A DNA stretch of 64,000 bases, from contig CAJNDT010006024.1 in NCBI GenBank assembly GCA_905221615.1, forward strand, positions 923,017 through 987,016, in the 5' to 3' direction. Made by a program: the position numbers and the translations under genes. The DNA is from Symbiodinium sp. CCMP2592. Lineage: Eukaryota > Sar > Dinophyceae > Suessiales > Symbiodiniaceae. This document shows, piece after piece, positions 36,222 to 63,044 of this stretch (the stretch's first letter is position 1; every line of letters starts with the position of its first letter). The notes beneath the pieces were generated by a model. The model saw only the letters and a list, made by a program, of their open reading frames with translations. It was not told the DNA's origin and made no database searches.

Positions 36222-36270
36222 CACTGTACTGTTCTGCTAAGATTGTGCGTGTGGCCTAAGTTAAGATATA
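36222..36270 (+). repeat. Left terminal inverted repeat
   Basis: A 49-bp terminal repeat starting CACTGTACTG and ending TTAAGATATA. It matches the inverse of 52402-52449 at 41 of 49 aligned positions, with one gap. Confidence 0.82.
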
Positions 36271-36390
36271 GATGTTAGTAACCCCCTTATAACCCCCCTG
36301 TAACCCCCTTACATCTTTGCCATCCATGTAGTAAGTCCCTACTAACTTGGGGGAAGTTAGTAGAAGGTTGGTTGGAAGAAATAGAAGTTA

Positions 36391-36449
36391 CTAACTTAAG
36401 TTAACTTTTTAGCTAACTTATGTTAACTTATGTTAACTTATTCTAACTT
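36391..36449 (+). repeat. Left subterminal repeats
   Basis: Repeated CTAACTTA and GTTAACTTA units. The same units in the same orientation lie inside the right end. In CACTA elements such subterminal repeats bind the element's regulatory protein; that role is inferred here. Confidence 0.7.
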
Positions 36450-36617
36450 ATTTTGTGTGTTTGTGCTGTTTGTGTGTTGGTGCTTCTTGTTTGTCATTGA
36501 TGCCGTTATTTTGCTTTTTGCGCTGTCGAAGCCAGTGTGTCCGCCGATCGCGTCTGGAAAGACGCTTCAGCAAGTCTATAGGAAAGATGCTATAGAGTAA
36601 GCCGCAGAGCAACATGC

Positions 36618-38357
36618 ATGCTTCCGCCGCAAGCTCTTGCTCCATCGAAGGTGAGGTTGGGAAACCCGCAGCTCGTAGAAAAACCTGCAATGGCCAATGT
36701 CATGGAGGAAATCCAGGGCGCGGTGCAGTACTTGGTGCAAGCGAAGGAGTGCCTCTCGGAGCGGAAGTTCTGGGAAGCCCGCAGCACCCAAGTCGACCGC
36801 TTGGCCGTTCTTTGCTGCGGCTTGCCGTCCAACCAGCACTCCGGCATGGCCATGAAGACACTTCGCGAAGCGGGAGTGTTCTTACCCGAGCAGCTGGAGC
36901 GCTTGGCGGAAGCCCTGGGCAGCAACGCTGCGACTGGAAAGTCGACAGCGGGTGTCCTGTGGCAGCAGGGAAAGTGTCAGGACTACGAGCACTTCTTCAG
37001 GGTCGTGCCAGCCACTTTGTGGCAGCAAATCGGCAAAGGCCGGGAGGCTGAGGAGTGGGAGGTTTTCTCGCTGCTGGCGGACTTCCTCGGAAGAGCCGGG
37101 TGCATCTCGCCGTCAGAGTTCACCTGCCGCAGCCTGACCGCCTTCATGCTGCTCCGCTTCCGGAAGGATGCCTTGTCGATGAGCGCCCAGGAGAAGCACG
37201 ACAAGTACGTCACGTACAAGGACGCTTTGAGGGCGCGGCTGCAAGGGCTGTACGACAGCAACCCCGGGCGGAAGCTCTGGCCTGTGGTCTGGAAGCTGAC
37301 CACGCCGAGCTGCCTGCCGGCAGAGTGGCTGCAGTGCTCTGGTGTGAGCTTGGAGGCAGCACCAACCGCTGTTCAGAGCCCCAAGGAGTCGGAGATCCGG
37401 TGCTTTGGCTTGACCATCGCGTGCAGGGACACGCACAAGGATCTCCAGTCAAGTCGGAAGGGAGACGCCTGCGGCTCCGGAAGCAGCGGAAGCAGCGGCG
37501 GGGACGTCGCGGCGGTCGTGGGGTTGCTTGAAAGGCTGCTTACTGGCTGCCTTCCACTGCAGAAGCCTGTGTCCAACCTGGCAGGGCTGCAGCAGCAGCT
37601 GACTCAAGCGCCAAGCCTCCCCGCACTGACGCAAGCGCAAAGCCTCCCCGCACTGACGCAAGCACAAAGCCTCCCCGCACTGACGCTGCCGCAAGTGCAG
37701 ACACCTGCGGCGGAAGTCCCTCTGCTGGCGCTGCCGGCGCCTGAAGCAGGGCACACAGCTAGCAGCACAGCCTCACCTCCAGCAGAAAAGACAGCTAGCA
37801 GACCGCCAGCCTCACCGCAGGTCGGCAAGCCTTCCGAGGTGCAGCCCCTCGACAGTTCTCAGTCTCAGACTTGCGACTTCAAGGGCAACCCCGCGCTGGC
37901 CTCCCTCGACGCTTTCACCCAGAAGTTCGAGACGCAAAAGAACGAGGTGGACACCGAGGAGGGAGCTGCGGAAGCAGAGCCAAAGAAGTCAAAGGCCAAA
38001 GCAAAGGCCAAGGCTCTGACTGCCGTTGCGAAGCCCAAAGCCACTGCGAAGGCCAAGGCTGCAGCGAAGGCGAAAGCCAAAGCGAAGGCCAAAGCCGGGA
38101 AGGCTGAGACAGCGAAGGAGGGCTTGCGGAAGCAGCAGGGCAAGAAGCAGCAGGACAAGAAGAAGGACAACCTGCTGGCCCTGCGGAAGCAGCTGCTCGC
38201 CAAGGCCGGGGTCTGCTCGGAGCTCGTGAAGAAGTTCGCCGAGGGCTGCCCGAAGTGCCGCAAGCGGCCCTTGTGCACGCTGTCTTGCTGGCAGTCGAGA
38301 GGGTTCAACCCTTCCAAGAAAGCTTGGAAGGACCTCCGTACTGCTGGAAAGCAGTGA
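36618..38357 (+). CDS. Element ORF1: 579-aa Lys/Ala-rich protein with Cys-rich C-terminus
   Basis: A single uninterrupted frame. Residues 1-250 are mixed and probably folded (an EEIQGAVQYLVQAKECL helix, later LWPVVWKL). Residues about 290-410 are a Ser/Gly/Pro linker with three copies of an LTQAQSLPAL-type repeat. Residues about 450-530 are very rich in Lys and Ala, resembling histone-H1-like nucleic-acid-binding tails. The end has a CPKC, then C, then C pattern (CPKCRKRPLCTLSC) that could bind zinc. The first ATG is used; MANVMEEIQ at 36690 is an alternative start. The stop codon lies in a perfect 6-bp hairpin with a GGAA loop (38340-38355). The family is not recognised; a DNA- or RNA-binding accessory protein of the element is inferred. 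Confidence 0.6.
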   Translation: MLPPQALAPSKVRLGNPQLVEKPAMANVMEEIQGAVQYLVQAKECLSERKFWEARSTQVDRLAVLCCGLPSNQHSGMAMKTLREAGVFLPEQLERLAEALGSNAATGKSTAGVLWQQGKCQDYEHFFRVVPATLWQQIGKGREAEEWEVFSLLADFLGRAGCISPSEFTCRSLTAFMLLRFRKDALSMSAQEKHDKYVTYKDALRARLQGLYDSNPGRKLWPVVWKLTTPSCLPAEWLQCSGVSLEAAPTAVQSPKESEIRCFGLTIACRDTHKDLQSSRKGDACGSGSSGSSGGDVAAVVGLLERLLTGCLPLQKPVSNLAGLQQQLTQAPSLPALTQAQSLPALTQAQSLPALTLPQVQTPAAEVPLLALPAPEAGHTASSTASPPAEKTASRPPASPQVGKPSEVQPLDSSQSQTCDFKGNPALASLDAFTQKFETQKNEVDTEEGAAEAEPKKSKAKAKAKALTAVAKPKATAKAKAAAKAKAKAKAKAGKAETAKEGLRKQQGKKQQDKKKDNLLALRKQLLAKAGVCSELVKKFAEGCPKCRKRPLCTLSCWQSRGFNPSKKAWKDLRTAGKQ

Positions 38358-38708
38358 AAGATGGCGAAGCTATCGTCCATCCACTGCGGTCTGCAGGAGC
38401 TTGACCATGTACCATATACGGAAGTATGTAGGCCTTTTGTTCCCTTGTGTTCGTTTTCGAACATCGCCTTCATATCCGTAGAGTTTTACGTGCATGTACA
38501 GCTTTGGAAAAGCACGACCCCACAGCTCCGAAACGCTCAGGGCTGGAAAGGAATAAAAAAATTGATTGCAGCAAGGCCGTCGTGGAGCCGCTTGATGTGG
38601 AGGTTGTTTTGCAAAAGCTGCGCATTCGCACAAGAAGCACATGCAAGCTTGCATCCATGCTTTGACTGCCGCAGCTTTGCTCCCTGCTGGCCCCCCGCTC
38701 TCCCAGCC

Positions 38709-39203
38709 ATGTCGGCGGACACGGAAAGCTCCAGCTCGGCTTCGTCCGTCTTCGACCTCTTGGAGGAGGCATATCAGGAGGCGGAAGCCTCCGAGCCTAC
38801 TCACGAGCAGCGGAAGGCGGCGACTGTCAACGCTGCTCGGGTCGCTGCGAGCTTCGCGCCCCTCATCAACGACTTGCTGCAAGTCCAAGCCTCGTTTTTG
38901 GTTGGTGACACCCAGCTTGAAGAGGCGGAGGCACAGAAGCTGCGGGACTACCTTGCAGAAGGTCGGGAGGTCCTTGCGCAAGCAGAAGAGGAAGTCGCAA
39001 ACTTCTCCCCGAACCTGTGCTGGGGCACGGGGCTGGAAGGCCGAAGGGGGGCAAGAGTCGCCGAGGACTTGCACGAGAAGGTGAGGCTTTCGGAAAACAT
39101 CCGAGCCTGGTTGACTAACGTGCAGCGGGAGCGTTTGCGCCGCATGCGCTACGAGAATCAACAAGCCAAAGCCCGGGCTAAGAGAGCAAGGGTGGATGCC
39201 TGA
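38709..39203 (+). CDS. Element ORF2: 164-aa charged coiled-coil-like protein
   Basis: The chosen ATG opens MSADTESSSSASSVFDLLEE. The frame is also open 116 codons upstream to 38361, but that part is Cys/Trp-rich and lacks protein-like periodicity, so I treat it as leader or intron. The protein is rich in Glu, Ala and Arg with helical segments (LEEAEAQKLRDYLAEGREVL) and a basic end (KARAKRARVDA) that could be a nuclear localisation signal. Codons 23-28 (QEAEAS) lie on a perfect GGAGGC/GCCTCC hairpin with a GGAA loop. It starts 351 bp after ORF1 on the same strand. No family is recognised. Confidence 0.5.
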   Translation: MSADTESSSSASSVFDLLEEAYQEAEASEPTHEQRKAATVNAARVAASFAPLINDLLQVQASFLVGDTQLEEAEAQKLRDYLAEGREVLAQAEEEVANFSPNLCWGTGLEGRRGARVAEDLHEKVRLSENIRAWLTNVQRERLRRMRYENQQAKARAKRARVDA

Positions 39204-39462
39204 GACTCCTGCTTAAGGTAGGCGTGGATCCTTATATAATTAAGACTCCTGTAAAAGCGAAGGGAGCCAGAAGACCTGCGGAAGCGGACTGCGCCAGAAG
39301 AGCCACCGCTCAGTTTTGGAAACATGAGAGACCACAGCTTTGTTCTGTGTGCCTGCAGGATATGTGAGCGCATGCATGAAAACATTCCACCACCATTGCA
39401 ATGACAGACCTTTGGCTTCAAGATTCTTTGCGTAAGATCCTTCTTCTTGGAAAAGAACCGCC

Positions 39463-39840
39463 ATGGCCAGCCCGTCGGAGTTGCTGGAACGTTTGCGTGC
39501 CAGCGCCAGCGCTGTGAGCAAAGTGGCGGAGAGCATATCGCCGGAGAAGGTCGCAGAGAAAGCCGCAGAGCTCCCAGACTTCGTCGACGAAAGTCTCGCT
39601 GCGAAAGCGCCGCCCGCTCCGACACTTGAACAAGGGCCGCAGCTTGAGACCGCGGAAGCAGATGCGACAGCTCTGCAGTCAGAGGCGGAAGCCATGGACG
39701 AGGCGGAAGCCGATGAGAACGAGGCCATAAGAGCCCGGTTTCCGCCAGAGTCTTTCGAGACGCCGGACCGGCCAACCAAGCGTCGGCGCCGTGTTTTGAA
39801 GGAGGCCCCAAAGAAGAAGCCTGCCGGAGCCTTTGCGTGA
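39463..39840 (+). CDS. Element ORF3: 125-aa acidic protein with basic tail
   Basis: Starts at an ATG in a CCGCCATGG context. An N-terminal helix (SELLERLRASASAVSKVAES) is followed by an acidic Ala/Glu-rich middle and a basic C-terminus (RPTKRRRRVLKEAPKKKP) typical of nuclear localisation. It lies 260 bp after ORF2 on the same strand. Gln/Glu-Ala-Glu-Ala codons again carry GCGGAAGC. No homologous family is recognised; a nuclear accessory protein is inferred. Confidence 0.5.
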   Translation: MASPSELLERLRASASAVSKVAESISPEKVAEKAAELPDFVDESLAAKAPPAPTLEQGPQLETAEADATALQSEAEAMDEAEADENEAIRARFPPESFETPDRPTKRRRRVLKEAPKKKPAGAFA

Positions 39841-40746
39841 ACAAGAATTTCACAGTCCTGTGTTGCAGGCTTTTGCACATGAAGGGCTCATGGTTTGCAA
39901 GGTTTATGATTCAACTTCATTTTTTTAGGTCGAAAAAGCTTGTATAAGGTTCAAGGGTTTCGGGTTAAGGGTTTAGGGTTCGGGGTTGACCAAGAGTGTG
40001 TATATGCATGTGTATAGATATATGTGAATGGTATAGTATAATGCATGTTTTGCCATGATTTTCTTTATAGTGACGGCCGGAAGGCCCATGCAGGCTCGCA
40101 TCCTAATTTCCGCAACAAAGCGAAACAGGCCGGGAGGCCCCAGATCAGGCATTGCCATTGAAGGCCGGAAGGCCAGGCCCGGAGGCCGCAGCTCAGGCCG
40201 GAAGGCCGTTGTTTCATGTGTTTCAAGTGCATGTTTTGCAAGGGCGTTGCAGCTTTCTGCCAACACGAGCATGTCATGGTGGAAACTCTGAATGTCCGCG
40301 CCGCTCCACATCTCAAGGTAGGGAGAAAGAAGAAACAACAGCAACACGAACACGTTCTAAGTTCCAGACACTTTCGCTTCTTATGTTGCAGGCTGTGGGG
40401 TTTACCTAGGTATCTGATGATAAACTTTAGGATGGAAGCCTGACTCTTTTCAACTTTAGGTGGAAACCTGACCCTTTTAAACTTTAGGTGGAAACCTGAC
40501 AACTCCCGACACACTCAAACCTGAACTCCCGACACACTCCTCCCTGCGCAGCTTCTCTAAGGCTAGGTCGCGTGTAGCCTGTAGCTGCCAGCCGGCCCAA
40601 AAAGGGCCGCCCTCGAGCTTCCGCTAAAGCGATAGCTGCTGCTACTACTACTACTACCACTACTCCTACTACGACTACTGCTACTACTGCTGCTCCTACT
40701 ACTGCTGCCGGGGAGGCATCGCCGGAAGGCGGAAGCTCGAGGCGCC

Positions 40747-43086
40747 ATGACCCACCGGCACAAACCGCAAGACGCTACGGATCGCTGCTTGCTCCGCTAC
40801 CTGTGGAGCCGGGAGGGCGCCGCCGAACCGTACGCAGACTGGCGCTTTCAGCTAGCCCAGGAATGGGCCACCCACCAATCCAACGTCCAGGACTGATTTG
40901 CCCAAAACCCTTTCCCTAAACCCCTTAACTGTATTCGCGTGCAGGACGACAGAGATTGGTGGAAGGACCCGGAAGGGCGCTGGTGGAAGAAGTTCGACCA
41001 GGCTGACGCCATCCCGGACGGGCACGAGAAGAAGGTCTACAACGGTCAGAAGTGGTGGTGCTACTACAGACGCCTGGCTGCAGACCGGAAGGTCACGAAC
41101 CGAAAGCTCTTTGAATGACTGTGTTTTTGAAATTTTTGGTTTAGCACTTCCTGTTTTTGTTGTGGAGTTCTTTGGTTTAGTTTATCCCTGCAAGGCCCGG
41201 TTGCTGGGGAAAATCAGCCGCCGGAAGGCGGTGCTTCTGCAAGCCGGAAGGCTGTAGTTCTGCATGGTGTGAGCCCTGCAGGCAAAAAGGCTCCTGGGGT
41301 GGTGGTCGTCGACCCCGAGCCAGCTAAGCCTTCCACAGCTGCAGGTCATCGTGTCAATGGGGCTTCTCGGGTTTAAGGTTTATATGTTTGTTAAATGTCG
41401 CAGGCCCAAAGGCGAAGCCGGCGGAAGCCACACGCGACCAGCCCAAGCAGCCAGGCAGGGCCAAAGAAGTTTGACCGGAAGGTCTGTTGTGTTTTCATCC
41501 GACAAGGTCCTCCGGCTCCGGCCAAAGCGCCGCCACCGCCGCCGCCGCCAGGCCCGCCTCCCACTTCCACCGACCCGGGAGGCGCCAAACCCAGGACCTC
41601 ATGCACTGCATGTGCCCCATACAATCATTGGTCAGGGAGCACTGGCAAGCCGCCTTCAGCGGCCCCACCTCCGACGCACACCGTGCCACCGGGAGGTGGC
41701 AAACTTACGACTATATTCAGGTATAGGTACACACACCTCAAACATTGATCAGGCAAGGCGACTCCTGCTGCGTGGCTGGGCACCTCTGCACCCAAAGGCG
41801 TGAATTTCTAAAAACGCCGGAAGGCGCGAAACAGCAGAAGCATTGCATGCAGGCCCGCCACCGAAAGCTTCTACGGATGATGCAGGCAGGGAGTTGGTTG
41901 CAATGGCATGAATTATATACACTTGGCATTGGTCAGGTCAGGCAGCCAAGAAAGCAAGACCCAGTGTAGGCTGGAAAGCCTGGTGTGCATTATATATAGT
42001 GTCAACAATCGACACAGCAAAAACCGTTCAGGCGGAGGCCCGCTGCCGCTGACTGCGCCCACCGTGAAGCCGCCGCCAGCTCACCTAGTCGAGCAGCAAC
42101 GTGGCTCGGATGCAAATCAGACCGGAAGGTCAACCTCAGACCGGAAGGTCTCATAGATTCGATAACTTCATTGCCTGTGCCAGAAGCCGAAGAACTGGAG
42201 CGACACCAAGAAGCTCAAGGCACGACCATGTCCCGTGCCGATGGCTGCGTTGTTTCAAGATATGTCTAGGTACTAGGGAGTCTAGGGTTTAGGGTTTAGG
42301 GGTTGCAGGGTTTAGGGTTTAGGGGTTTAGTATATATATATATATTTATATATATACACATACACATGCAGGTGAGACTGGCTGGGAAGCCGCCGCCCGC
42401 ATCGCAGAGCAGCTCAGAGGCCTGATCCGATTTGTTTCACCACCTGCGTCCGTAGACCGGAAACCTTCAACACATGATGTCGCAGGTGAAGAGGAACTCG
42501 CAATGGAGAGGGCTGCGCTGGAGAGGGATGCGGCGGCGGAAGCTGCTCGGCGAGCGGAGGCGGAAGCGCGCGCTCCGCAAGACGAGCAGATGCACAAGAG
42601 GGAGATGCAGCTGAATGAGATGCGGGACATGGCATCCAAGCGGCGACGCAGACTGCTGCTGCAGGCTGACGCGGCGGAAGCTGCTCCTGCAGAGGCGGCC
42701 GTTTCTGTCGAGGGCCGGAAGGCCAATGCATGCATGCTTGTGTCGCCAGGAGGCCAAACCCTCATCGGCCGAAGTCGGGGACTCAAGAACCCCAGCCCGA
42801 AAACCCCCAAACACAAAGCCTGCACAGGATCCTGCGGGAGCAGCCGCCATGGAGACGTCCGATCCCAGCCAGAACGAGGCAGGGAGGAGCATGCTGTGGA
42901 AAGACCGGAAGGCCCACCCAATCAACGCAGGATCATTCTGCTGCACTTCGCGCCGAGCAGCAGGCTTCCTGCACACAGACCGGAAGGTCCAACCACGAAC
43001 CACTTGCTTGCCTGCAGGAGAACCAGCGGCGGCATTTCAGGTTGGCGAGGGAGGCGTTGATGATTCGCCAGGCAAGAGCCACTTAA
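40747..43086 (+). CDS. Element ORF4: multi-exon gene with 27-59 nt micro-introns
   Basis: This model was built by hand. Exons are 40747-40890, 40945 to about 41101, 41282-41344, 41404-41472, 41507-41594, 41636-41720, 41753-41797, 41853-41909 and from 41937; further exons are likely near 42033, and then 42372-42708, 42749-42902, from 42931, and a last exon ending at the TAA at 43084-43086. Junctions restore sensible reading: VQ|DDRDWWKDPEG, STAA(G)PKAKPAEA, GGAKP(R)EHWQAAFSG, DYIQ|ARRLLL, LHPK|ARHRKLL, SVSV|EAKPSS, MLWK|DHSAALRAEQ. Introns start GA, GC or GT and all end AG. The N-terminal part is Trp/Tyr-rich (RWWKKFDQ, KWWCYYRR), the middle is Pro-rich, and the C-terminal part is a coiled-coil-like Glu/Arg/Ala segment. 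The family is unknown. The junctions before 41282 and around 41966-42371 and 42976-43014 are unresolved, and this may be two genes. Confidence 0.5.
40891..40944 (+). other. GA-AG intron, 54 nt (predicted)
   Basis: CCAG|GACTGATTTG at the donor and CGTGCAG|GACGAC at the acceptor. Without splicing the frame stops at the TGA five bases after the donor; with splicing it continues into the Trp-rich exon. It contains a CCCTAAACCCC stretch. Confidence 0.65.
41473..41506 (+). other. GA-AG micro-intron, 34 nt, starting with a hairpin
   Basis: The predicted donor is the first base of GACCGGAAGGTC, a 4-bp hairpin with a GGAA loop. The acceptor is GACAAG|GTCC. It links the Ala/Lys-rich exon to the Pro-rich exon in frame. 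Confidence 0.45.
41595..41635 (+). other. GA-AG micro-intron, 41 nt
   Basis: Donor CCCAG|GACCTC, acceptor CATTGGTCAG|GGAGC. Removing it shifts the frame into the protein-like EHWQAAFSGPTSDAHR segment. The 3' end CATTGGTCAG recurs at the introns ending 41752 (CATTGATCAG) and 41936. Confidence 0.5.
41721..41752 (+). other. GT-AG micro-intron, 32 nt
   Basis: Donor TTCAG|GTATAGG, acceptor CATTGATCAG|GCAAGG. Splicing joins DYIQ to ARRLLLRGW in phase. Confidence 0.5.
41910..41936 (+). other. GA-AG micro-intron, 27 nt
   Basis: Donor GGCAT|GAATTA, acceptor CATTGGTCAG|GTCAGG. At 27 nt it keeps the frame whether or not it is spliced, so this call rests only on the shared 3' end. Confidence 0.35.
42709..42748 (+). 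other. GA-AG micro-intron, 40 nt, with hairpin
   Basis: Donor CTGTC|GAGGGCC, acceptor TCGCCAG|GAGGCC. It contains GGCCGGAAGGCC four bases after the donor. Splicing joins two protein-like frames (AAVSV and EAKPSSAEVGD). Confidence 0.5.
42903..42930 (+). other. GA-AG micro-intron, 28 nt, starting at a GACCGGAAGGCC motif
   Basis: Donor GGAAA|GACCGG, acceptor AACGCAG|GATCAT. Splicing joins GRSMLWK to DHSAALRAEQQ, and the unspliced frame loses that pattern. 28 nt would be exceptionally short for a spliceosomal intron. Confidence 0.45.
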
Positions 43087-43119
43087 ATTCCCAAGACCCT
43101 TAAACCCGAAACCCTCCTC

Positions 43120-43387
43120 ATGGATCCTCATCCTGGCCAGGCCGAGCTCGAGGAGGAAATGGCGGAAGCTCGCATCATGGAGCTTACCATCGAGCAGGAG
43201 GACCCTTGCTTTTTTTAAGGACCGGAAGGTCGGCAGTGCTGGGAAGCACAAAACACAACAGACCGGAAGGTCGAAACAGGCCGGAAGGTCACAAACTAAC
43301 CCAAACTCCGTGCCACAGGAAGCCAGCGCCCGGGGGCGAACTCTCGCGGAGGAGCGGCGGGAGATGGAGCGCCGCGGCTTCCAGTGA
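43120..43387 (+). CDS. Element ORF5: 48-aa charged microprotein, two exons
   Basis: Exon 1 is 43120-43197 (26 codons from ATG, MDPHPGQAELEEEMAEARIM). Exon 2 is 43319-43387 (22 codons plus TGA, including RTLAEERREMERRG). The intron (43198-43318, 121 nt) starts GA and ends CACAG|GA. It carries three or four GGAA or GGGA hairpins (43220, 43236, 43261 and a wobble-containing one near 43278). The product would be one charged helix. It could also be the C-terminal part of ORF4 with an unrecognised link. No family is recognised. Confidence 0.45.
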
Positions 43388-43389
43388 AG

Positions 43390-43460
43390 CCAGCAGCAGA
43401 CAGCGGCAACAGCAACAGCAACAGGCAGCAACAACAGCAACAGGCAGCAACAACAACAAC
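43390..43460 (+). repeat. CAG/CAA repeat
   Basis: CAGCAGCAGA, then CAACAGCAACAGCAACAGG-type units directly after the ORF5 stop. Confidence 0.85.
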
Positions 43461-43834
43461 CGTGCAATTCGCCGGAAGGCTGAGCTGGATATGGATCCGG
43501 GAGGTTGTTTTGGCTAAGCCCCGTAGCCTCTTCCTGAACCCCACAACCCTAAGCCCTAAATCCTAAACCCTTAATAGCATGATCCAGGTCCAGCTCGACT
43601 ATAGCCTCCGTATTTTTGAAAAGGCACAGGCAGCGGAAGCACTTGGACAGTGTCACAAAAGTTTGGGTGTTGCGGGCTTTGGCGCTTGGGGTGTTTAGGG
43701 TTTCTAGGGTTTGGGGTTTATAGGGTTTGGGGTTTCCAGGGTTTAGGTATAGGAACATCAAGAGCGGTTATAGGTTTCGGGGTTTAGGATTCAAGTTGGG
43801 TTCAAGATAGATTGCTGGGTTCGGGAAACCCAGG

Positions 43835-43990
43835 CCACCACCACCACCACCACCACCACCACCACCACAACCACGACGACCACAAACCACCGCCACCACC
43901 ACCACCACCACCACCACCCCCACCACCACCACCACCCCCACCACCATCACCACCACCACAACCACGACGACCACACCAACACCAAAACCA
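43835..43990 (+). repeat. (CAC)n trinucleotide tract
   Basis: CACCAC and CCACCA units with a repeated CACAACCACGACGACCACA interruption (about 43864 and 43956). A TTTAGGG-like cluster lies just upstream (43690-43790). Confidence 0.9.
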
Positions 43991-44214
43991 ACAAAAGCAG
44001 CAACGACAACAACAATACCAACACTAGGCTGCAGCAGTCCATGCAGTGCTTCGCATGAGCCTATAGCTATGCCTCTTCCGACTTTGCAAGTGTGGCGCTC
44101 TTCCGATCCGGCCAAAAGAATGAGGAGTCGCAGGGTTCGATTGTGGCTACATACAAATACACACACAGGTGAATGCATGCATCCAGGATTACTACAATTT
44201 GGGAAACATGAGAA

Positions 44215-44660
44215 TATGAATTTTTGTCAAATTTACAAAACTGAAAATATGAATTTTTTATGAACTTTTCCGGCCTCGAAATATGAACTTTTTATGAACT
44301 TTTCGGACCTCGAAATATGAACTTTTTATGAACTTTCGGACCTCGAAATATGAACTTTTTATGAACTTTTCGGGCCTCGAAATATGAACTTTTTATGAAC
44401 TTTTCGGCCTGGAAATATGAACTTTTTGGCCTCGGATTCCTTGTAAGGGCCAATAAAAGCTGAAAATATGAACTTTTTGGGGCCTTCGAAATATGAACTT
44501 TTTATGAACTTTTTCGGCTTCGAAATATGAACTTTTTATGAACTTTTCAAGCCTCCAAATATGAACTTTTTATGAACTTTTTCAGCTTCGAAATATGAAC
44601 TTTTTATGAACTTTTCCGGCCTCGAAATATGAACTTTTTATGAACTTTTTCAAGGTCCCT
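44215..44660 (+). repeat. AT-rich tandem repeat (32-36 bp unit)
   Basis: About eleven imperfect copies of a unit whose core is AAATATGAACTTTTTATGAA, with CTTTTC and CGGCCTCG spacers. It joins directly to the CCACC satellite on the right. No coding function is apparent. Confidence 0.92.
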
Positions 44661-44699
44661 TTCAGAAGGTTGGACTGGATCACCAGCCGCAAACCTGTC

Positions 44700-46195
44700 C
44701 ACCACATGCCATCCCCCCACCGTGCTGCCACCAATCCCATTCAAGCCCGCCACCCACCCTGCGCGCAGCACACGACCCACCCCAGCCACCCCTTCACCCC
44801 TCCCCACCACCACCCACACCACCACCCACACACCCACCCACCCGCCCACCCGCCCGCACGCCCGCCCGTCCACCCACCCACCCCCACCCACCCGCCCGCC
44901 AACCCACGCACCCACCCACCCACCCCCACCACCCACCCACCCACCCACCCACCCCCCACCACCCACACCACCACCACCACGCCACCCGCCACCCACCACC
45001 ACCACCCACCACCCACCACGACCACCACCAACAAACCCACCACCACCACCCACCACCACCCACCACCCACCACCCACCACCCACCACCCACCACCCCCAC
45101 CCGCCACCCGCCACCCACCACCACCCACCACCCACCACCACCCCCCACCACCCACCACCCACCACCCACCACCCACCACCCACCACCCACCACCCACCAC
45201 CCACCACCCACCACCCACCACCCCACCACCCACACCACTAACCACCCACACCACTCACCACCCACCACCCCACCACCCACACCACTCACCACCCACACCA
45301 CTCACCACCCACCACCACCCACCACCCACACCACTCACCACCCACACCACTCACCACCCACCACCACTCACCACCCACCACCACCCACCACCCACCACCA
45401 TGACCACACGACGCACCCACCACCACCACCCCCCCCACCGCCCACCACCAACCACACCACCACCACCACCCACCCACCACCCACCACCCACCACCCACCA
45501 CCCACCACCCACCACCCCACCCACCACCACCACCCACCACCCACCACCCACCACCCACCACACCCACCACCCACCACCCACCACCCACCACCAAGCCCCA
45601 CCACCCCCCCCAACATGCACCCCCACCCCCCACCATCCTCCACCTCCACCCACACCCACCACACACACCCAAGCCACCAGCCACCACACCACCTAACGCC
45701 CACCAACCCCAACCACGTTCCACCACCTCACCCAACCCCACCCTGTCCACCATATTCCTCCCACGGGTCCATGGACCCGACCACACCCACCCGCCCTGCA
45801 ACCCACCACCCACCACCCATCACAGCACGGCACCCACCACACGTTGCCCCACCCCAACAAGCCACACCAGCCACACCACCCACCAGCCAACACCCAACCC
45901 CACCCACCACACCCACCACTCCTGGCACCCACCATGTGCCACCCCAGCACCTACACCCAACACCTGTGCACTCACCAACACCCACCCACCACCTGCCACC
46001 CACCAGCACCTGGACCTACCACCCTTTGCACTGCCACACCCACCACTTAAACACCCAGCACGTGCACCCACGTCCACACCGCCAACACCCACCACCCATG
46101 CACCACCACCCACCCCACCCACCACCCACCCACCCACCCACCCACCCACCCCCACCCACCCACCCACCCACCCACCCACCCACAGCCTCACAGCA
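44700..46195 (+). repeat. 1.5-kb CCCACCAC/CCCA satellite of A and C only
   Basis: Built from CCACC, CCCACCAC and CACTCACCA units. From about 44940 to 45600 the plus strand is almost entirely A and C. All reading frames are open (poly-His/Pro/Thr on plus, poly-Gly/Val/Trp on minus), which reflects composition rather than coding. Confidence 0.93.
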
Positions 46196-46225
46196 CCACC
46201 GTTTCGAGATACCGACATATTTATG

Positions 46226-46262
46226 GGTGTATATATATATATACATATATATGTATATGTAT
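46226..46262. repeat. (TA)n microsatellite
   Basis: A TA run with ATGTATATG variants just right of the satellite. Confidence 0.9.
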
Positions 46263-46688
46263 TGATTTTTTGATACATATATGTGTGTATACGTATAACA
46301 CAGATGCCATTGTATTACATATTACAAAGCTCTTGGTGTCACATATGACAATACTTCAATCACACAGACACACGCACACGATATCAAGATTGTCACATCA
46401 TATGACACACACACACACACAGACACAGTTGCCAGCACAATCGATCATGTCCTTCCGGACCAGCTCGCAAAAGGCCAGTTCGCTTATCACAATCGGGCCG
46501 GAAGGCCACTTCGCTTATCACAATCGGGCCAGAAGGCCACTTCGCTTCCTCCTTGCTAGATTCACTAGCATGCATGCATGATAGGTATCATTTTTGCATT
46601 TGTTTTGGTGCACGCCGCAGCCAGCTAGCAACTCTCGGCGGAAGCCTTAACGCCCCCTTCGCTCCTTCGCTCTCTTCCTCTTGCCGGA

Positions 46689-47762
46689 ATGGCACCGAAG
46701 TCGGCGCTCCCCAAGACCGGCGCCAAGGCTGGGCCCAAGAAGAGGGCCCAAAGCCAAGGCCGGGCCCCCGCCTTGCCGACGGAGGACATCAAGAGGTTCA
46801 AGTCCTTCGTCCAGGCGGAAGCCAAAAGGGGAGCGAGGAAGAATGACCAGACGGACTCCTTGGCGGAAGCCTACGATCAGTCCGATCGGGAGGGCAAGAG
46901 GGAGATCCTGGAGAAGTGGTCGAACGACCGCTCCCTGGGATGGGTGGCAGGCTACCTTCGGGAGAAGGCCTTCGTCCACTCGCAGGGATGCGAAACGCGC
47001 TCCTCTTGGCAGACGGAAGCTGCGATCTGTGCTCAGGAGGGTTTGGGCAACCTGGAGCACATTTCCGAGGACAACCGGAAGGTCTTGGACGAGCTGCTCA
47101 AGGACTACGAGGTTCGCGAGCACGAGATCCCGACTTTGGCCGCCCTTGGAATGAAGCAGTACCGGACCAAGAAGACCGAAGAGGTTGAAGCTACCGCGGA
47201 GCAAGACTCCGTTCGCCTCACCCTGAGCGCAACTGGAGTGGACAAGCCTGAGAAGGCCAGCAGCAGCGGCAGCAGGAACAAGGGCAAGAACTCCAACACG
47301 ACGCCCGTTCCGGGAGGTGCCCCTGGCGAGGTGGTGATCAACTACACGGTCCTCTGCGAGAAGACCAAGAAGGAGGTGACCAAGTTGTTGACCCTCGTCC
47401 GGAAGGCCGCTGCAAGTGCGGGCAGAGCCACGGTGGAGCCTAAGGAGTTCAAGGAAGCCGTGAGGCAGGGGCTCAGGGTCGTCCAGGACGCAGCCGACAA
47501 CGCCGAGGACTCGCTGGAGAACGTCACGTTCGACGAGCCCGGCTTGGAAGGCCTGCAGAAGCTCCTGGCGACACTGAAGGAGTCGCACGAAGCCTTCCTT
47601 GCGCTTCTGGCAAAGTGCTGTCCCAAAGCCTTGCCGAAAGCCAAGGCAAAGGCAAAGGCGGAAGCCAAGCCCGACGACTCCGCTGAGCCTGGCACTCCTG
47701 CTGACCCGCCCGCTGCTCCCGCGCCGGCTGCGCCTGCGGCTGCCAACGCTGAGGACAAGTAG
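46689..47762 (+). CDS. Element ORF6: 357-aa protein of unknown family
   Basis: An uninterrupted frame from ATG. The N-terminus is basic (KTGAKAGPKKRAQSQGR). A probably folded helical domain follows at residues 30-150 (EDIKRFKSFVQAEAKR, EKWSNDRSLGWVAGYLREKA). After a Ser/Gly/Asn linker there is a second helical domain at about 215-310 (CEKTKKEVTKLLTLVRKA, LLATLKESHEAFLALLAKC), then a Lys/Ala and Pro/Ala low-complexity tail. Motif-like GCGGAAGC codons (Ala-Glu-Ala) recur, as in ORF1-3. I recall similar N-terminal domains in dinoflagellate repeat-associated proteins but cannot name the family. A nucleic-acid-binding accessory role is possible. Confidence 0.6.
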   Translation: MAPKSALPKTGAKAGPKKRAQSQGRAPALPTEDIKRFKSFVQAEAKRGARKNDQTDSLAEAYDQSDREGKREILEKWSNDRSLGWVAGYLREKAFVHSQGCETRSSWQTEAAICAQEGLGNLEHISEDNRKVLDELLKDYEVREHEIPTLAALGMKQYRTKKTEEVEATAEQDSVRLTLSATGVDKPEKASSSGSRNKGKNSNTTPVPGGAPGEVVINYTVLCEKTKKEVTKLLTLVRKAAASAGRATVEPKEFKEAVRQGLRVVQDAADNAEDSLENVTFDEPGLEGLQKLLATLKESHEAFLALLAKCCPKALPKAKAKAKAEAKPDDSAEPGTPADPPAAPAPAAPAAANAEDK

Positions 47763-48520
47763 CTCGAAGTAGCTTGAAGCCAGAGGCGACCCCCTGCCGG
47801 AAGGAAGCACAGCTGTCCCAGCACAAGCTTGCCAAGACAACAGTTCTAGCAGCGGTGTCGCTCTCTGTCCGCAGTCCATGCGTTTTGAGATCAGCCTGGC
47901 CTGCGTTTCAGACTCGCCGAGCCCATGCGTTTTGTGATCAGCATGGAGCCTTTGGAGTTCTAGCTAGCAAAGCAGTTTTGACGGCAACCTCTCAGTCACC
48001 ATAACCCGGTTTATGTGTCATGCAAATTTGCATAGGGTTTGAGGTTTATTGCTTAAGGGTTTAAGACTTTAAAAAACGAAGTTACTTTCAGTTGTTGCGT
48101 AAGACAAAACTTTCAAGGTTTCACTTGACATTATACTGGGTTCATGGTGAGTTGCGGGAGCACGAAAGCCTAGAAACGTTGGCTCCAAAAGCGAGCCTGC
48201 TTCAGGAACGAAGCACGAACGGAAGTGGCCTGCTGACGGCAAAAATCGAGAGCCGAAGCCTTGTAGCTGCAGCAGCTATCGATTTCGAGAAGTTGCAAGG
48301 CAATTTGTGCGAACCCATTGGGCGGAAACCCAATTACAGCGAAGGCAGTATGTGTGCTCTGTCTACTACGTAAGTTTGCAGTCGATGCGATTAGTTCTGG
48401 CTTGCATATTTCTATGCTGCCCAGCGTTGCCAGGTGGGAAACGTTTCCAATGCTCGCTGTTTATGCAGCCGCATCTGAGACAAGTCCAAGCAGCCCCTCC
48501 CCCGCTCCTTACTGCTCGCC
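47763..48520. other. Intergenic spacer in the element
   Basis: No convincing gene. It contains a direct repeat of CCATGCGTTTTG plus GATCAGC (about 47877 and 47924). The region may hold promoter or leader sequence for the gene at 48524. Confidence 0.5.
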
Positions 48521-48523
48521 GCC

Positions 48524-49183
48524 ATGAGCGCCTTCCAGTGCTGCATTTTGACCTTCGCCGAGTCCCAGGTCGAAGAGCCCGAGCGCCCCAAGTCCTTCCG
48601 CTTCTTCAAGCTCGGCGAAAAGACCACGCGGCAGCTCAACTACATGATGGAGGCTTACGACCGCCAGTTTGATGAGCCGCGAGGCGAAGGTGCGGAAGCG
48701 CAGCCCGAAGGTGAGGTTGAGCAGCCGGAGGAGGAGGAGGAAGTGCCGGAAGGGGTCCGACGCTTCTACCGCCACAGCAAGGTGCGAGTGAGCTTTACCT
48801 ACGCCCAGAACTACCACTTCAAGCTGAAGAAGACCACGGAAGTGGGCGGTCGCAGGGTGTTCATCTTGAAGTCCGTCTCGGGACAGATGACACACCTGTG
48901 GGTGGAAGTCCTGAGCAGCCGGGTCGTCCAGCTTTTTTTGAGGCCCACCCTGCAAGGGGTCCGGGTGACGGCCAGCACCCTGGCCGGGCGACAGCTGGCG
49001 GAAGCCAGGCTTCCACCAAGCTCGACGCTCAAGAGCGCCACGGCTACTTTGCTGGAAAGCATGGACGTGTCGAGTGCGGAAGCCTCCTTCGTGAAGTTTG
49101 TGCTTGGCTCCGAGGCTGCGGTGATGGACCGCCCTTTGCGCAGCTTGAGCACAGTCATCAACGACTTGCGGAAGCGTCGTTGA
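48524..49183 (+). CDS. Element ORF7: 219-aa protein of unknown family
   Basis: An uninterrupted frame from an ATG in a CGCCATGAG context. It has three parts: an N-terminal segment (SFRFFKLGEKTTRQLNYMME), an acidic stretch (EQPEEEEEVPEG), and a C-terminal domain of alternating beta-like segments (KVRVSFTYAQNYHFKLKKTT, GGRRVFILKSVSGQMTHLWV) ending VINDLRKRR. Two perfect GGAA-loop hairpins lie inside the coding sequence (48834-48845 and 48995-49008). It sits 590 bp upstream of the transposase-like gene. The beta-rich C-terminal part could be a DNA-binding fold; this is speculation. Confidence 0.55.
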   Translation: MSAFQCCILTFAESQVEEPERPKSFRFFKLGEKTTRQLNYMMEAYDRQFDEPRGEGAEAQPEGEVEQPEEEEEVPEGVRRFYRHSKVRVSFTYAQNYHFKLKKTTEVGGRRVFILKSVSGQMTHLWVEVLSSRVVQLFLRPTLQGVRVTASTLAGRQLAEARLPPSSTLKSATATLLESMDVSSAEASFVKFVLGSEAAVMDRPLRSLSTVINDLRKRR

Positions 49184-49224
49184 TGACTTTACGAAGGGGT
49201 TTTTTTAAGCTGTCAGGAATGACA

Positions 49225-49301
49225 TGCATGGACTATAGATATGTTCTATAGTACGAGTTTGTTTTGACAAGGTCGTGCAAACTCTAAATATAGTCCATGC
49301 A
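49225..49301. repeat. Inverted repeat downstream of ORF7
   Basis: TGCATGGACTATA and its exact inverse TATAGTCCATGCA flank about 51 bp, starting about 40 bp after the ORF7 stop. It could be a 3'-end hairpin or a small MITE nested in the element. Confidence 0.7.
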
Positions 49302-49771
49302 CAATCCTGGCAGCAGGCATGCTGGAAGGCCCGAAGAGGCTATAGCTGGCAGCAGGCATGCTGGAAAGCCCTGAAAGGGCAGCATGCCTTTGCCCAGTCG
49401 CGAATTTGTTTGGCAGCAACAGGAATGCCCAGAAGAGGCTACCGCACAGGACGGCAGAGAACTTTGAAAAAAAAAGAGGCCTCCAACTGTTTCTGTGTGC
49501 ATGGAACTGCTGCTTCAGCTATACGTGCAGAGGTTGCCACCACCGACGTTGCTCACACGTCTCATGTCAGTTCACTTGTGCGCATGGCGTTGCATCAACC
49601 GCTGCAGCGCAGTGAAATCAAGCTTGCAGACATAGCCTGGAGGTCCGATGACAGATGCTTCAAAAACTATAAACAGAAATGCTTTTTAGCAAGTTCTTCA
49701 AGAAAGCATTTTTGAGACACATCTGCAATTTTTAGTGTAAGTCCTTGTTTACAGATATATAGGAATTCACC

Positions 49772-52015
49772 ATGTCGAAGCGGAAGCTGCCGGAAAGCGA
49801 GACAACCGAGAGGGTTGCTCGCCACGCAGCCAGACGAGATGCTCCGCCGTCTGCCGTTCGCGACCTCGCTGGGGAGCAGGTGGACCCCAGAACAAGGAGG
49901 AAAGCGGAGAAGGCCGCCGTGGATGCTCTCTACGACTACGTGGAGATTCCGCGAGCTGCGGAAGCGGCGGGTGTTGCTGCGGAAGCGGCGGGCGGCGCGG
50001 GAGCGGCTGCCGCGGGAGCGGCTGCTGCGGGAGCTTCTGCCACGGGAGCGGCTGCTGCGGGAGCTTCTGCCACGGGAGCGGCTGCGGAAGCAGAGCCGCT
50101 GAGGTACCCCGTCCTCAACGTCTTCAATGCCTGGGAAGCTTTGGCGCGGGAGTCGCCAGATTTCCAGCGTCTACTCCAGGCGAAGGCGGCAGGCGGAAGC
50201 CTCAGGCTCCGGTTTTCTGTTTATGGTGACGAGGTGACGCCCGGCAACCCGTTGGCGCCGGACAACCGGCAAAGGGCGTATTGCTTTTACATCAGCGCAC
50301 TCGAGTTCGAGGAGTTCCTCCTGTCCGAGATGTGCTGGTTCGTGCTCACCGTTGTGCCCACTGTCACCATGAAAACCGTCAAGGCAGGATTGTCTGGCTT
50401 TGTACGATGTTTGTACCGCCACCTGCGATATCTGCAGCTGGGTGCCAATATCCAGCTCGGCGGAAGTCAGCTCTTCGTGCATGGTGCTGTTTCGCATTGC
50501 TTGTATGATGCAGCGGCTTTGCATGGAGTGCTGGGAAGCACCGGACAGTCAGGAAACAAGCCTTGCTTCCGCTGCGGCAACGTTTACAGTCGCTTCAAGA
50601 AGTTGCCGCCAGACGCTGACCGCCAAGGCCTGCGAACTTTGAACGCCACGGAAAATCAGCTTCGCACTATGACAAATGAGCACATCTTCGAGGTGGTGGA
50701 CCATGTCCTGGCGGCATCCCGAACCCAGCCGTCACTTTTCTCGTAAATGATATTTCGCAGACATGTGTTGTTTTTTGCAGGGTTTTCCAAACAATGGCAA
50801 CTGCTTATATATATAGGTGTATATATACATTAAATACATAGAGGCATTAACACGTTTTTGGGCTACGTGTGTTTGCCCACGGTCTTCGTCAGGAAAACCA
50901 AAGTCAAGCAACTTGTCACAGACGTTGGCTGGAATGCTCTGGAAGGAAGCTTGCTCACGGACGATGCTACTCGGCGCGAAGTGCCACCTTTGATGCACTA
51001 CTTCGATCCCATGCATGTCTTCTTCGTGCAGGGACAGTTTTCCAGGCATGTCGGCTTTCTTTTGAAGGCATTGCAGAAGATGGGCTGGACCCCTGACCGC
51101 ATAGCCGAAGCCTGCACAGATGATTCCATCAAGCACCGAAGAAGCACTCGCAAGGTCGGCCGGGCGCAATTTGCTCGCGAGCTGGGAGACAAATATTTCA
51201 CTGAAGATGGAACTTGGAAAGTCTCCGCATCCAGCCAGCTTGGAGCTGCTCCGTTGCTTCACTTCCTCATTCGTTTCATAGTCTTTCCAACCGTAACTTG
51301 TCCTGACATGAAGAAGGAATTGCAGGCGTTTCTCCTTCTCGGCTCCGTCCTATCTTTGTGGATGCAGATCAAGTTCACTCCTTACGGTGAGACTGTGCGG
51401 AAGCACGCTGAATCTGCTGAAGCTCTGCGGAATCATGCGGAAGCATTGGCATGCCGTTTCCAGAACGCCATCAACGCCTACATTGCTGCTTTTCATGAGG
51501 TCTACGGCTTGGAGAAGATGAGGCCAAAAACACATTACATGCTGCACTTAGTGCAGCAGTACAGAGACCACTGTCGGATGCTGGATGCTTTCGTTCTCGA
51601 GCGCAAACATCGCGCCGCAAAGACCAAAATCGAGCATCTGTCCGGAAAGGGACACAATTCGGTGGTGTCCGTGCTGCACTCCCTTTGGAGTCTGCAGATT
51701 TCCGAAATCCGCGAAGCTCAACCCTTCGGTTTCAGTTGCGACGGAAATCGCTTGGATTCTGGGCCCTACAAGATTGAGCTTGGCCAAGTCGTTTGGTTTC
51801 CTTTGCACCGCAAAGCAGGTTTGGTGGAAGAAATTTGGCTGGAAAAGCAAATCATCTGGATCTCGGTCAAAGCGTTCATGGAAGTCAAGACAGAGCCTGG
51901 GTGTTTAGTGTTTGCAGAACCACTGCAAAGAATGCGAGCCTGCCTGCAGCAGCACCAATTCTTGCTGCCGCCTTGCTGGATGCTGGAAGGAAACTCTTTG
52001 ACGATGTTGTTCTGA
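49772..52015 (+). CDS. Transposase-like protein of the element (at least two exons)
   Basis: Two frames, 49772-50746 (324 codons) and about 50846-52015 (more than 385 codons), are separated by about 100 bp with intron-like features (a TTTTTTGCAG acceptor at 50760 and TA-rich sequence). The first part has a basic N-terminus, Ala/Gly repeats (AAAAGASATGAA), then LRLRFSVYGDEVTPGNPLAP and a Cys pair (CFRCGNVYSRFK). The second has HYFDPMHVFFVQGQFSRHVG and later RPKTHYMLHLVQQY and LDAFVLERKHR. The D of YGDE, the D of FDPMH and the E of LERKHR are plausible catalytic residues of an RNase-H-like DDE transposase, as in the CACTA/Tnp2, Plavaka or KDZ groups. It lies next to the right end. Splice sites are not certain, so the exact product and its integrity are open. 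Confidence 0.65.
50747..50845 (+). other. Probable intron region in the transposase-like gene
   Basis: TCTC|GTAAATG is a possible donor and TTTTTTGCAG|GG (50751-50780) a possible acceptor. A second AG follows the TA-rich segment just before GCATTAACACG. One or two introns are possible; I could not fix phase with confidence. Confidence 0.4.
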
Positions 52016-52328
52016 CTCTGCAGTGGTCGCCGCAGCGAGCGGTCTGAGGAAAAGACTGCAGCCAGTCCGGGGATGCATACTGCATGCACTCATGCGATGC
52101 TGCCCTTAAGTCTCTATATGAGCTGGAAGCCTTGCACTCCCATGAGCCGGAAGGTTTGCATCTCTTTTTAAAGCAGTTGATATTTGCCGGACGTCTTGCG
52201 TGAGTAAATAGTCGCAGAAAGCTTGCGAGTAACTCGGAAAGTTTGCGCCTTTGTGCCTTTGTCTGCCATGGTGTGTCTTTGCGTCTCGATTCTTGTTGTT
52301 TCTCCGTTTCGTTATTTTAAGCCTGTAT

Positions 52329-52384
52329 AAGCTAACTTTTTCTAACTTATGTTAACTTATGTTATCTTTTTAGCTAACTTATTT
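52329..52384 (+). repeat. Right subterminal repeats
   Basis: CTAACTTATGTTAACTTATG and related units, in the same orientation as those at 36391-36449. Confidence 0.7.
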
Positions 52385-52401
52385 AACCTCTTAGTATCAT
52401 G

Positions 52402-52449
52402 TATATCTTAACTTAAGCCACACGCACTATCTTAGTGGGGAGTACGGTG
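52402..52449 (-). repeat. Right terminal inverted repeat
   Basis: 48 bp reading TATATCTTAA to CGGTG, the imperfect inverse of the left end. Confidence 0.82.
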
Positions 52450-62617: not shown

Positions 62618-63044
62618 ATCATGCATATATATATATATATATTAATATATATATTATATTTTATATTATATATATTATATAATATATATTATATATTATA
62701 TATTATATATTATATATTATATATTATATATTATATATTATATATTATATATTATATATTATATATTATATATTATATATTATATATTATATATTACATA
62801 TTACATATTACATATTACATATTATATATTATATGTTATATATTATATATTATATATTATATATTATATATTATATATTATATATTATATATTATATATT
62901 ATATATTATATATTATATATTATATATTATATATTATATATTATATATTATATATTACATATTACATATTATATATTATATATTATATATTACATATTAT
63001 ATATTATATATTAGATATTAGATATTATATATTATATATTATAC
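62618..63044. repeat. (ATTATAT)n heptanucleotide satellite, about 430 bp
   Basis: A near-perfect 7-bp repeat with occasional ATTACAT and ATTAGAT variants. The Ile/Tyr/Leu open frame over it is an artefact. Confidence 0.95.

Follow-up and report, generated by a model that had tools for sequence, protein, structure and literature searches.

An array of GGRA minihairpins on one strand of a DNA transposon in Symbiodinium sp. CCMP2592

Described systems of repeated stem-loops

Dispersed packaging signals, such as those of MS2 and of the pregenome of hepatitis B virus, comprise many stem-loops that share a recognition motif in otherwise varying sequence, as set out in two accounts (PMC6281560, PMC7612645). 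They are the closest functional likeness, one of design only with no membership implied, to the hairpin array described here, which lies in a DNA transposon of 16,199 bp within a window of 64,000 nucleotides of Symbiodinium sp. CCMP2592 (C5162:923017-987016, contig CAJNDT010006024.1). The element carries 46 hairpins with the loop GGAA or GGGA (GGRA) on 24 different 4-nt arms. Like the packaging signals of RNA viruses, these are many short stem-loops spread over the whole sequence, with a common loop motif and overlap with coding regions. Unlike them, they belong to a DNA transposon with inverted ends in which no coat protein was found, and their loop is stricter.

In the CsrB/RsmZ titration RNAs and the CsrA/RsmE sites, too, hairpins recur whose loops contain GGA while their stems vary; in the element, GGAA holds GGA and GGGA holds it shifted by one base. 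That system is bacterial and its sites use larger loops than those of the element, which stand in open reading frames (ORFs) and spacers of a transposon. No CsrA-family protein was found among nine translated stretches of the element, the host genome lying outside that scan.

A GGAA tetraloop on a stem also occurs in helix 45 of the small-subunit ribosomal RNA, the site of the KsgA/TFB1M methyltransferases, where a protein contacts it largely via the loop and the phosphate backbone; TFB1M is known to engage this tetraloop (PMC6698656). Helix 45 differs in being a single ribosomal site with its own stem, and GGGA would miss one of the two target adenines. The REP palindromes of bacteria are described as linked to REP-associated tyrosine transposases (PMC2817692), so that there, as here, many small palindromes are tied to a transposase family. 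Those palindromes are spread over bacterial genomes, whereas the present array lies within one element. REPs share sequence; the hairpins share only the loop, with 24 different 4-nt arms in 46, and rather than occurring in both orientations at many loci they are biased 46 to 1 by strand, with the 130 kb of host DNA sampled at background.

Number, strand and loop of the hairpins

The limits of the element were determined as follows:
36237..52435, + (strand of the hairpins and of ORF1 to ORF7): whole element, 16,199 bp, with inverted ends
36237..36281, +: left terminal inverted repeat, 45 nt, 89% complementary to 52391-52435
52391..52435, -: right terminal inverted repeat, 45 nt, partner of 36237-36281

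A hairpin was defined as an exact NNNN-GGRA-N'N'N'N', with the loop GGAA or GGGA and a stem of at least 4 bp. The initial annotation had placed more than 30 such sites in 36931-51446, all with the purine loop on the plus strand. That interval lies within the true limits of the element but does not reach them, and the array in it is stronger than claimed, with 44 exact hairpins on the plus strand (35 of 136 GGAA sites and 9 of 57 GGGA sites) and one on the minus strand (1/46 GGAA, 0/35 GGGA). For the whole element, hairpins with stems of 4-7 bp were found at 46 of 219 GGRA sites on the plus strand and at 1 of 88 on the minus strand. The plus-strand hairpins are given below as left arm, loop and right arm.

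36550..36565, +: GCGTCT-GGAA-AGACGC
36655..36666, +: GGTT-GGGA-AACC
36931..36944, +: CGACT-GGAA-AGTCG
37966..37977, +: CTGC-GGAA-GCAG
38181..38192, +: CTGC-GGAA-GCAG
38340..38355, +: ACTGCT-GGAA-AGCAGT; outer A-T is G.T in 4 of 7 other copies read
38416..38427, +: ATAC-GGAA-GTAT
38777..38792, +: GGAGGC-GGAA-GCCTCC
39444..39457, +: TTCTT-GGAA-AAGAA
40075..40086, +: GGCC-GGAA-GGCC
40128..40139, +: GGCC-GGGA-GGCC
40163..40174, +: GGCC-GGAA-GGCC
40196..40207, +: GGCC-GGAA-GGCC
40458..40469, +: AGGT-GGAA-ACCT
40486..40497, +: AGGT-GGAA-ACCT
40720..40731, +: CGCC-GGAA-GGCG
40855..40868, +: GCCCA-GGAA-TGGGC
41083..41094, +: GACC-GGAA-GGTC
41218..41231, +: CCGCC-GGAA-GGCGG; first copy of a 23-bp tandem repeat
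41242..41253, +: AGCC-GGAA-GGCT; second copy of the 23-bp repeat, pair 4 A-T against C-G in the first
41473..41484, +: GACC-GGAA-GGTC
41684..41701, +: TGCCACC-GGGA-GGTGGCA
41815..41826, +: CGCC-GGAA-GGCG
41968..41981, +: AGGCT-GGAA-AGCCT
42120..42131, +: GACC-GGAA-GGTC
42138..42151, +: AGACC-GGAA-GGTCT
42380..42391, +: GGCT-GGGA-AGCC
42713..42724, +: GGCC-GGAA-GGCC
42832..42843, +: CTGC-GGGA-GCAG
42978..42989, +: GACC-GGAA-GGTC
43220..43231, +: GACC-GGAA-GGTC
43236..43249, +: GTGCT-GGGA-AGCAC
43261..43272, +: GACC-GGAA-GGTC
46496..46507, +: GGCC-GGAA-GGCC; the following tandem copy is GGCC-AGAA-GGCC
46955..46968, +: CCTTC-GGGA-GAAGG
46980..46993, +: TCGCA-GGGA-TGCGA
48834..48845, +: CCAC-GGAA-GTGG
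48995..49008, +: CTGGC-GGAA-GCCAG
49050..49061, +: TGCT-GGAA-AGCA
49211..49224, +: TGTCA-GGAA-TGACA
50009..50022, +: GCCGC-GGGA-GCGGC
50082..50093, +: CTGC-GGAA-GCAG
50191..50202, +: AGGC-GGAA-GCCT
50528..50541, +: GTGCT-GGGA-AGCAC
51395..51406, +: GTGC-GGAA-GCAC
51435..51446, +: ATGC-GGAA-GCAT

Only two hairpins had been counted outside 36931-51446. There are in fact five on the plus strand, two of which (36550 and 36655) fall within the true element, leaving three in the 47.8 kb of the window outside it, where one was also found on the minus strand. No hairpin lies within the inverted ends, and no link to those ends was seen.

Dinucleotide shuffles of 36931-51446 (n=300) yielded a mean of 0.49 hairpins and a maximum of 3, against 44 observed. 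When left and right arms were re-paired among the 219 plus-strand sites (n=2000), a mean of 3.08 and a maximum of 10 were obtained against 46, in agreement with the claim of a conserved loop between variable but complementary arms. Re-pairing within the 145 sites with a pyrimidine-loop-purine arrangement gave 3.7 where 43 were observed, and sliding one arm by 1-4 bases left 0-5 hairpins. With stems of at least 3 bp the count was 65 (9.1 expected) and with stems of at least 2 bp it was 103 (29 expected); the excess therefore amounts to approximately 55 to 75 sites. The median gap between the 65 sites of at least 3 bp is 140 bp, and regular spacing was rejected, since these gaps, one of 3 kb excepted, have a coefficient of variation of 1.0. 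The asserted covariation is established between sites within the one element only, the copies being too alike for a comparison of homologues.

Seven ORFs on the plus strand were chosen for analysis, the direction being backed by homology for ORF1, ORF6 and ORF7 only:
36618..38357, +: ORF1, 579 aa; C-terminal Cys cluster preceded by a Lys/Ala-rich stretch; related transposons carry homologues
38709..39203, +: ORF2, 164 aa; no Pfam match
39463..39840, +: ORF3, 125 aa
46689..47762, +: ORF4, 357 aa; confined in this genome to copies of the family and the relic C2369
48524..49183, +: ORF5, 219 aa
49772..50746, +: ORF6, N-terminal part of a putative transposase; matched in related families by tblastx
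50834..52015, +: ORF7, C-terminal part of the putative transposase; 12 near-identical and 95 distant genome matches

These ORFs hold 17 hairpins, against a mean of 1.2 and a maximum of 7 in codon-preserving shuffles (n=500), and, as had been argued, codon bias is not the cause. Hairpins are about as dense in the 6480 bp of these ORFs as in the 9719 bp outside them, which hold 29, and this lends little support to the proposal that the hairpins are splicing signals. Where a glutamate codon follows G, at least two flanking pairs were present at 20 of 41 GAA codons versus 4 of 48 GAG codons (Fisher p 2.5e-5); pairing goes with the GAA spelling of this residue.

In a comparison of every tetraloop (256) on 3-bp stems only two stood out, GGAA (52 vs 8.0) and GGGA (13 vs 2.1), and no comparable excess was seen for UNCG-like or other GNRA tetraloops. 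At 4-bp stems, hairpins were formed by 36 of 156 GGAA and 10 of 63 GGGA sites, and by none with GAAA (0/89), GCAA (0/95), GTAA (0/14), GGTA (0/10), GGAG (0/108), TGAA (0/68) or CGAA (0/73). GGCA gave 2/80, both in the tandem pair 49307-49378 and so representing one duplication, and the single-base loop variants AGAA (1/81), CGGA (1/116), GAGA (1/54) and GGGT (1/54) gave one hairpin each; no further single-base variant of GGAA or GGGA formed any. The loops had been described as GNRA tetraloops, which is correct for GGAA and GGGA; the rule is nevertheless GGRA and not GNRA, since other GNRA loops are not enriched. The closing pair is C-G in 31 hairpins, T-A in 12, A-T in 3 and G-C in none, and pairing exceeds expectation at pairs 1-5 but not at pairs 6-8. 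The 46 hairpins have 24 different 4-nt arms and are thus not explained by a protein that binds one sequence of double-stranded DNA.

Host DNA, related families and copies of the element

Host DNA was sampled as thirteen 10-kb stretches with coordinates chosen blind (20 requested, 7 contigs being too short). These 130 kb contained 2 hairpins on the plus strand and 4 on the minus strand; a lone 7-bp hairpin, CGGTGCC-GGAA-GGCACCG, stands in host DNA at L012:5501. Related transposon families of this genome, sampled at twelve loci (51 kb), gave one hairpin on each strand. One of these loci, C1258 (L023), has an ORF1 homologue of 541 aa and a transposase of 688 aa, yet no 4-bp hairpin. For a comparison of coding strands, eight ORFs were taken from the seven of twelve related loci for which long ORFs were listed: ORF1, ORF6 and ORF7 together contain 11 hairpins in 3873 bp, and the eight ORFs contain 1 in 15,354 bp (Fisher p 2e-7). 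As homologous genes are at background in the related families, the hairpins evolved in place within older genes. The array is specific to the element family and not to the host or related transposons as far as sampled, which agrees with the element-specific density first proposed. The further idea of tiny self-spreading palindromes finds little support, given the 24 arms, the single orientation of 46 out of 47 and the homologous genes at background.

Genome counts of two hairpin sequences were 408 for GACCGGAAGGTC, against 333 for the reversed control, and 553 for GGCCGGAAGGCC, against 138. Copies of the element family would account for about 81 of the 408 if all sites were intact, by our own arithmetic. 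Among the matches listed (the first 100 of each), many have GACCGGAAGGTC and GGCCGGAAGGCC on the same strand with 768 bp between them. At locus L038 (C3:755500-755799, 300 bases) three of the six frames are open, and one of these perhaps resembles retroelement coding sequence; its strand carries four GGRA sites, one of them with a hairpin. From the 300 bases seen, the GACCGGAAGGTC/GGCCGGAAGGCC locus reads as a high-copy repeat with two sites and not as a dense array. There may be another hairpin-rich family in this genome.

The genome searched amounted to 1.098 Gb. The host is a dinoflagellate; the spliced-leader sequence of that group is matched exactly 429 times in the genome and its reversed pattern 0 times, and none was found in the window with up to 3 mismatches allowed. 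A probe from ORF1 matched 11 places at 98-100% and one piece at 85%, and of 358 candidates for the transposase end 107 were scored, 12 of them matching at 98-100% and 95 at 25-40%. The element belongs to a young family, with roughly a dozen near-identical copies. Its inverted ends, precise boundary and copies at different sites are those of a DNA transposon. All eight loci fetched with the ORF1 probe, of which L001 is the window's own copy, begin with CTAAGAT, so that other copies start at the identical base with different flanks: those of the seven non-window loci differ from the window's, and L005 and L006 (contig C125) share one flank. The latter two are approximately 9.4 kb apart with the same left flank, which suggests that the left part of the element was duplicated together with it. 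Approximately 20 bases are missing from L003 just inside the element end. The left boundary was read in eight loci and the right boundary in the window alone, where the outer 18 bases of the left inverted repeat occur only at the two element ends. TG flanks this copy on both sides and is too short to prove a target-site duplication. The transposase looks DDE-like from our reading of conserved D and E positions in the consensus; a superfamily search gave no Pfam family above cut-off and no PDB sequence match for it.

Between copy C423 and the window, 46 substitutions and 14 gap positions were counted over 40700-43300, and none of the 46 falls within the 232 bases of eighteen hairpins of at least 4 bp (4.1 expected, p 0.014). 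Eight copies of 36237-39090 show 22 single-nucleotide polymorphisms, two of them at the edge of the L003 gap, and one lies in a hairpin, where it changes an outer A-T to G.T. Pooled, 1 of 68 substitutions is in a hairpin against 5.0 expected (p 0.04). The seven GACC hairpins are all present in five other copies among the matches listed (C125 twice, C423, C580 and C581). The comparison of copies leans, weakly, to conservation of the hairpins. In the relics C897, C2369 and C5021, pieces are 84%, 86% and 76-93% identical to the element; seven element hairpins of at least 3 bp have counterparts there, of which two (3 bp) are intact and five weaker or absent, differences that may represent gain or decay, the two being separable only with an outgroup.

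Within the element, 44807-46183 is a 1.4-kb low-complexity sequence of CCACC type without 4-bp GGRA hairpins; judging by how far apart the matches on either side lie, the gap would be larger in two other copies, by about 14 kb in C580 and by 4 kb in C581. A 34-bp tandem repeat, AAATATGAACTTTTTATGAACTTTTCCGGCCTCG, of about 12 copies occupies 44245-44649, and by eye a non-canonical-looking intron of an element-internal gene lies at 40891-40944, between CCAG/GAC and GCAG/GAC repeats. Elsewhere in the window, the 7-mer ATATATT is repeated 60 times at 62625-63043.

Pfam gave no match for ORF1, ORF2, ORF5, ORF6 or ORF7 and only sub-threshold ones for ORF3 and ORF4, Rfam gave no match at gathering scores, and a viral contig database scanned with the terminal inverted repeat, ORF1, ORF4, ORF5 and ORF7 held no relatives. 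ORF1 (window 37981-38310) and its homologue L023:4091-5713 (minus strand) have the same ending, a Lys/Ala-rich stretch followed by the Cys cluster C-x2-CR-x2-P-x-CT-x2-C. It is possible that this cluster is a nucleic-acid-binding module common to related transposons.

What the hairpins may do

The strand bias, the purine at loop position 3 and the lack of a shared stem sequence point to folding of a single strand, most likely as GNRA loops of RNA, which require a purine at that position. The hairpins are on the same strand as ORF1, ORF6 and ORF7. A GNRA loop is stable without G at position 2, so the fixed G speaks for a partner that recognises the loop; with stem sequence free and loop sequence fixed, something would read the loop on a short helix. 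The reading preferred here, with a probability of roughly 0.55, is that the array forms in the plus strand, most likely in RNA, and that its GGRA loops are bound by a trans-acting factor which marks the transcripts. The plus strand would carry small stem-loops with a pyrimidine-purine (rarely A-T) closing pair, and the loop, GGAA or GGGA, would be a tetraloop of the GNRA class whose second base is always G. A trans-acting RNA-binding factor, encoded by the element or by the host, is the candidate reader, and many weak, interchangeable sites over coding and other sequence would permit multivalent binding of element transcripts, with packaging into a ribonucleoprotein or particle, export, translation or shelter from silencing as candidate outcomes from which the element might profit. 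Docking or binding sites, as first proposed, are probably the best reading of hairpins in a transcript, the bound protein itself being putative. RNA seems favoured over DNA by about three to one, and selection may maintain the sites, to which the copies lend weak evidence. Put forward more tentatively, at somewhat less than even odds, is an element-wide, loop-coded RNA address label: some fifty to seventy-five interchangeable GGRA hairpins would tag every part of the transcript for a dedicated binding protein, in the way of packaging signals but in a transposon with no capsid known, and would have evolved in place over the element's coding sequence.

Several observations weigh against marking of transcripts by a loop-binding factor. 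Pair-probability folding in a 204-nt context gave a mean above 0.5 for only 21 of the 46 hairpins, and many would therefore need help or compete with other structures. At pair 3, with the remaining three of four pairs intact, G.T was found 10 times against 1.5 expected and A.C twice against 0.9 (binomial p 0.02), in favour of RNA, but over pairs 1-4 the counts were 14 for G.T (3.8 expected), 10 for A.C (3.0) and 22 for other mismatches (12.2). An excess of G.T confined to pair 3 hardly separates RNA from DNA. The conservation among copies is statistically weak and is not separated from exon constraint, a 3-bp hairpin at 40971 loses its third pair in C423 through two substitutions, and the loop of one 4-bp site has four bases in C423 but five in six copies including the window's. 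Long open frames exist on the minus strand too, for example 410 codons at 46647-47879. Searches of Pfam, Rfam and PDB sequences gave nothing above cut-off or convincing and no candidate for the binding protein; as ORF1 and the transposase are common to families at background, they do not account for the hairpins by themselves.

The strand bias would fit a single DNA strand equally well, and the hairpins might act in plus-strand single-stranded DNA while the element replicates or transposes, like those used by Y1/REP transposases or at rolling-circle origins. Stable d(cGNNAg) loops do exist in DNA, but they would not demand a purine at position 3, whereas GGCA (2/80, one duplication) and GGTA (0/10) contrast with GGAA (36/156); a DDE-like transposase, if correctly read, needs no single-stranded DNA, and the homology-supported ORF1, ORF6 and ORF7 are all on the hairpin strand. 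This explanation is considered unlikely. A mutational origin, in which template switching or snap-back synthesis at GGRA perfects imperfect palindromes without selection, would act alike inside and outside ORFs and require no binding factor, and the two tandem copies at 41218-41253 do differ by a paired change. Such a process must, however, spare the 130 kb of host DNA (2 plus, 4 minus) and the related families (1 and 1 in 51 kb), would not be expected to favour those GNRA loops whose second base is G, and is set against copies that show no wholesale gain or loss of hairpins; it is rated as rather improbable.

Packaging signals proper, with ORF1 or ORF4 as a coat or Gag-like protein that packs the element RNA by recognising GGRA loops, would have the architecture of the published signals, dispersed structures with a common recognition motif in varying sequence, as given in that account (PMC6281560). 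The end of ORF1 is moreover formed by a basic stretch and a Cys cluster. Against this, no capsid or reverse transcriptase family was found by Pfam among the nine translated stretches, ORF1 homologues occur in families at hairpin background and the element has the ends of a DNA transposon, which makes such packaging improbable by a wide measure. The idea that base composition, codon bias or tandem duplication created the array as a mere statistical artefact is given almost no weight: GGAA is commoner on the plus strand (136 vs 46) and some hairpins are within tandem repeats, but the excess survives the dinucleotide, codon and arm re-pairing controls, by which chance, composition and codon bias were rejected, and is spread over 24 different arms.

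A limited literature search, by which absence in print is not proven, gave no such hairpins described for dinoflagellates or transposons. If the hairpins mark RNA, the element would be a DNA transposon with an identity code at the RNA level, like that of RNA viruses, and to our knowledge such a code is known in no DNA transposon. It would also be a rare case in which RNA structure selected over coding sequence is readable from one genome. Gene control in dinoflagellates is thought to be largely post-transcriptional, and marking of transcripts by these loops, if true, would point to a candidate tetraloop-reading protein in this group.

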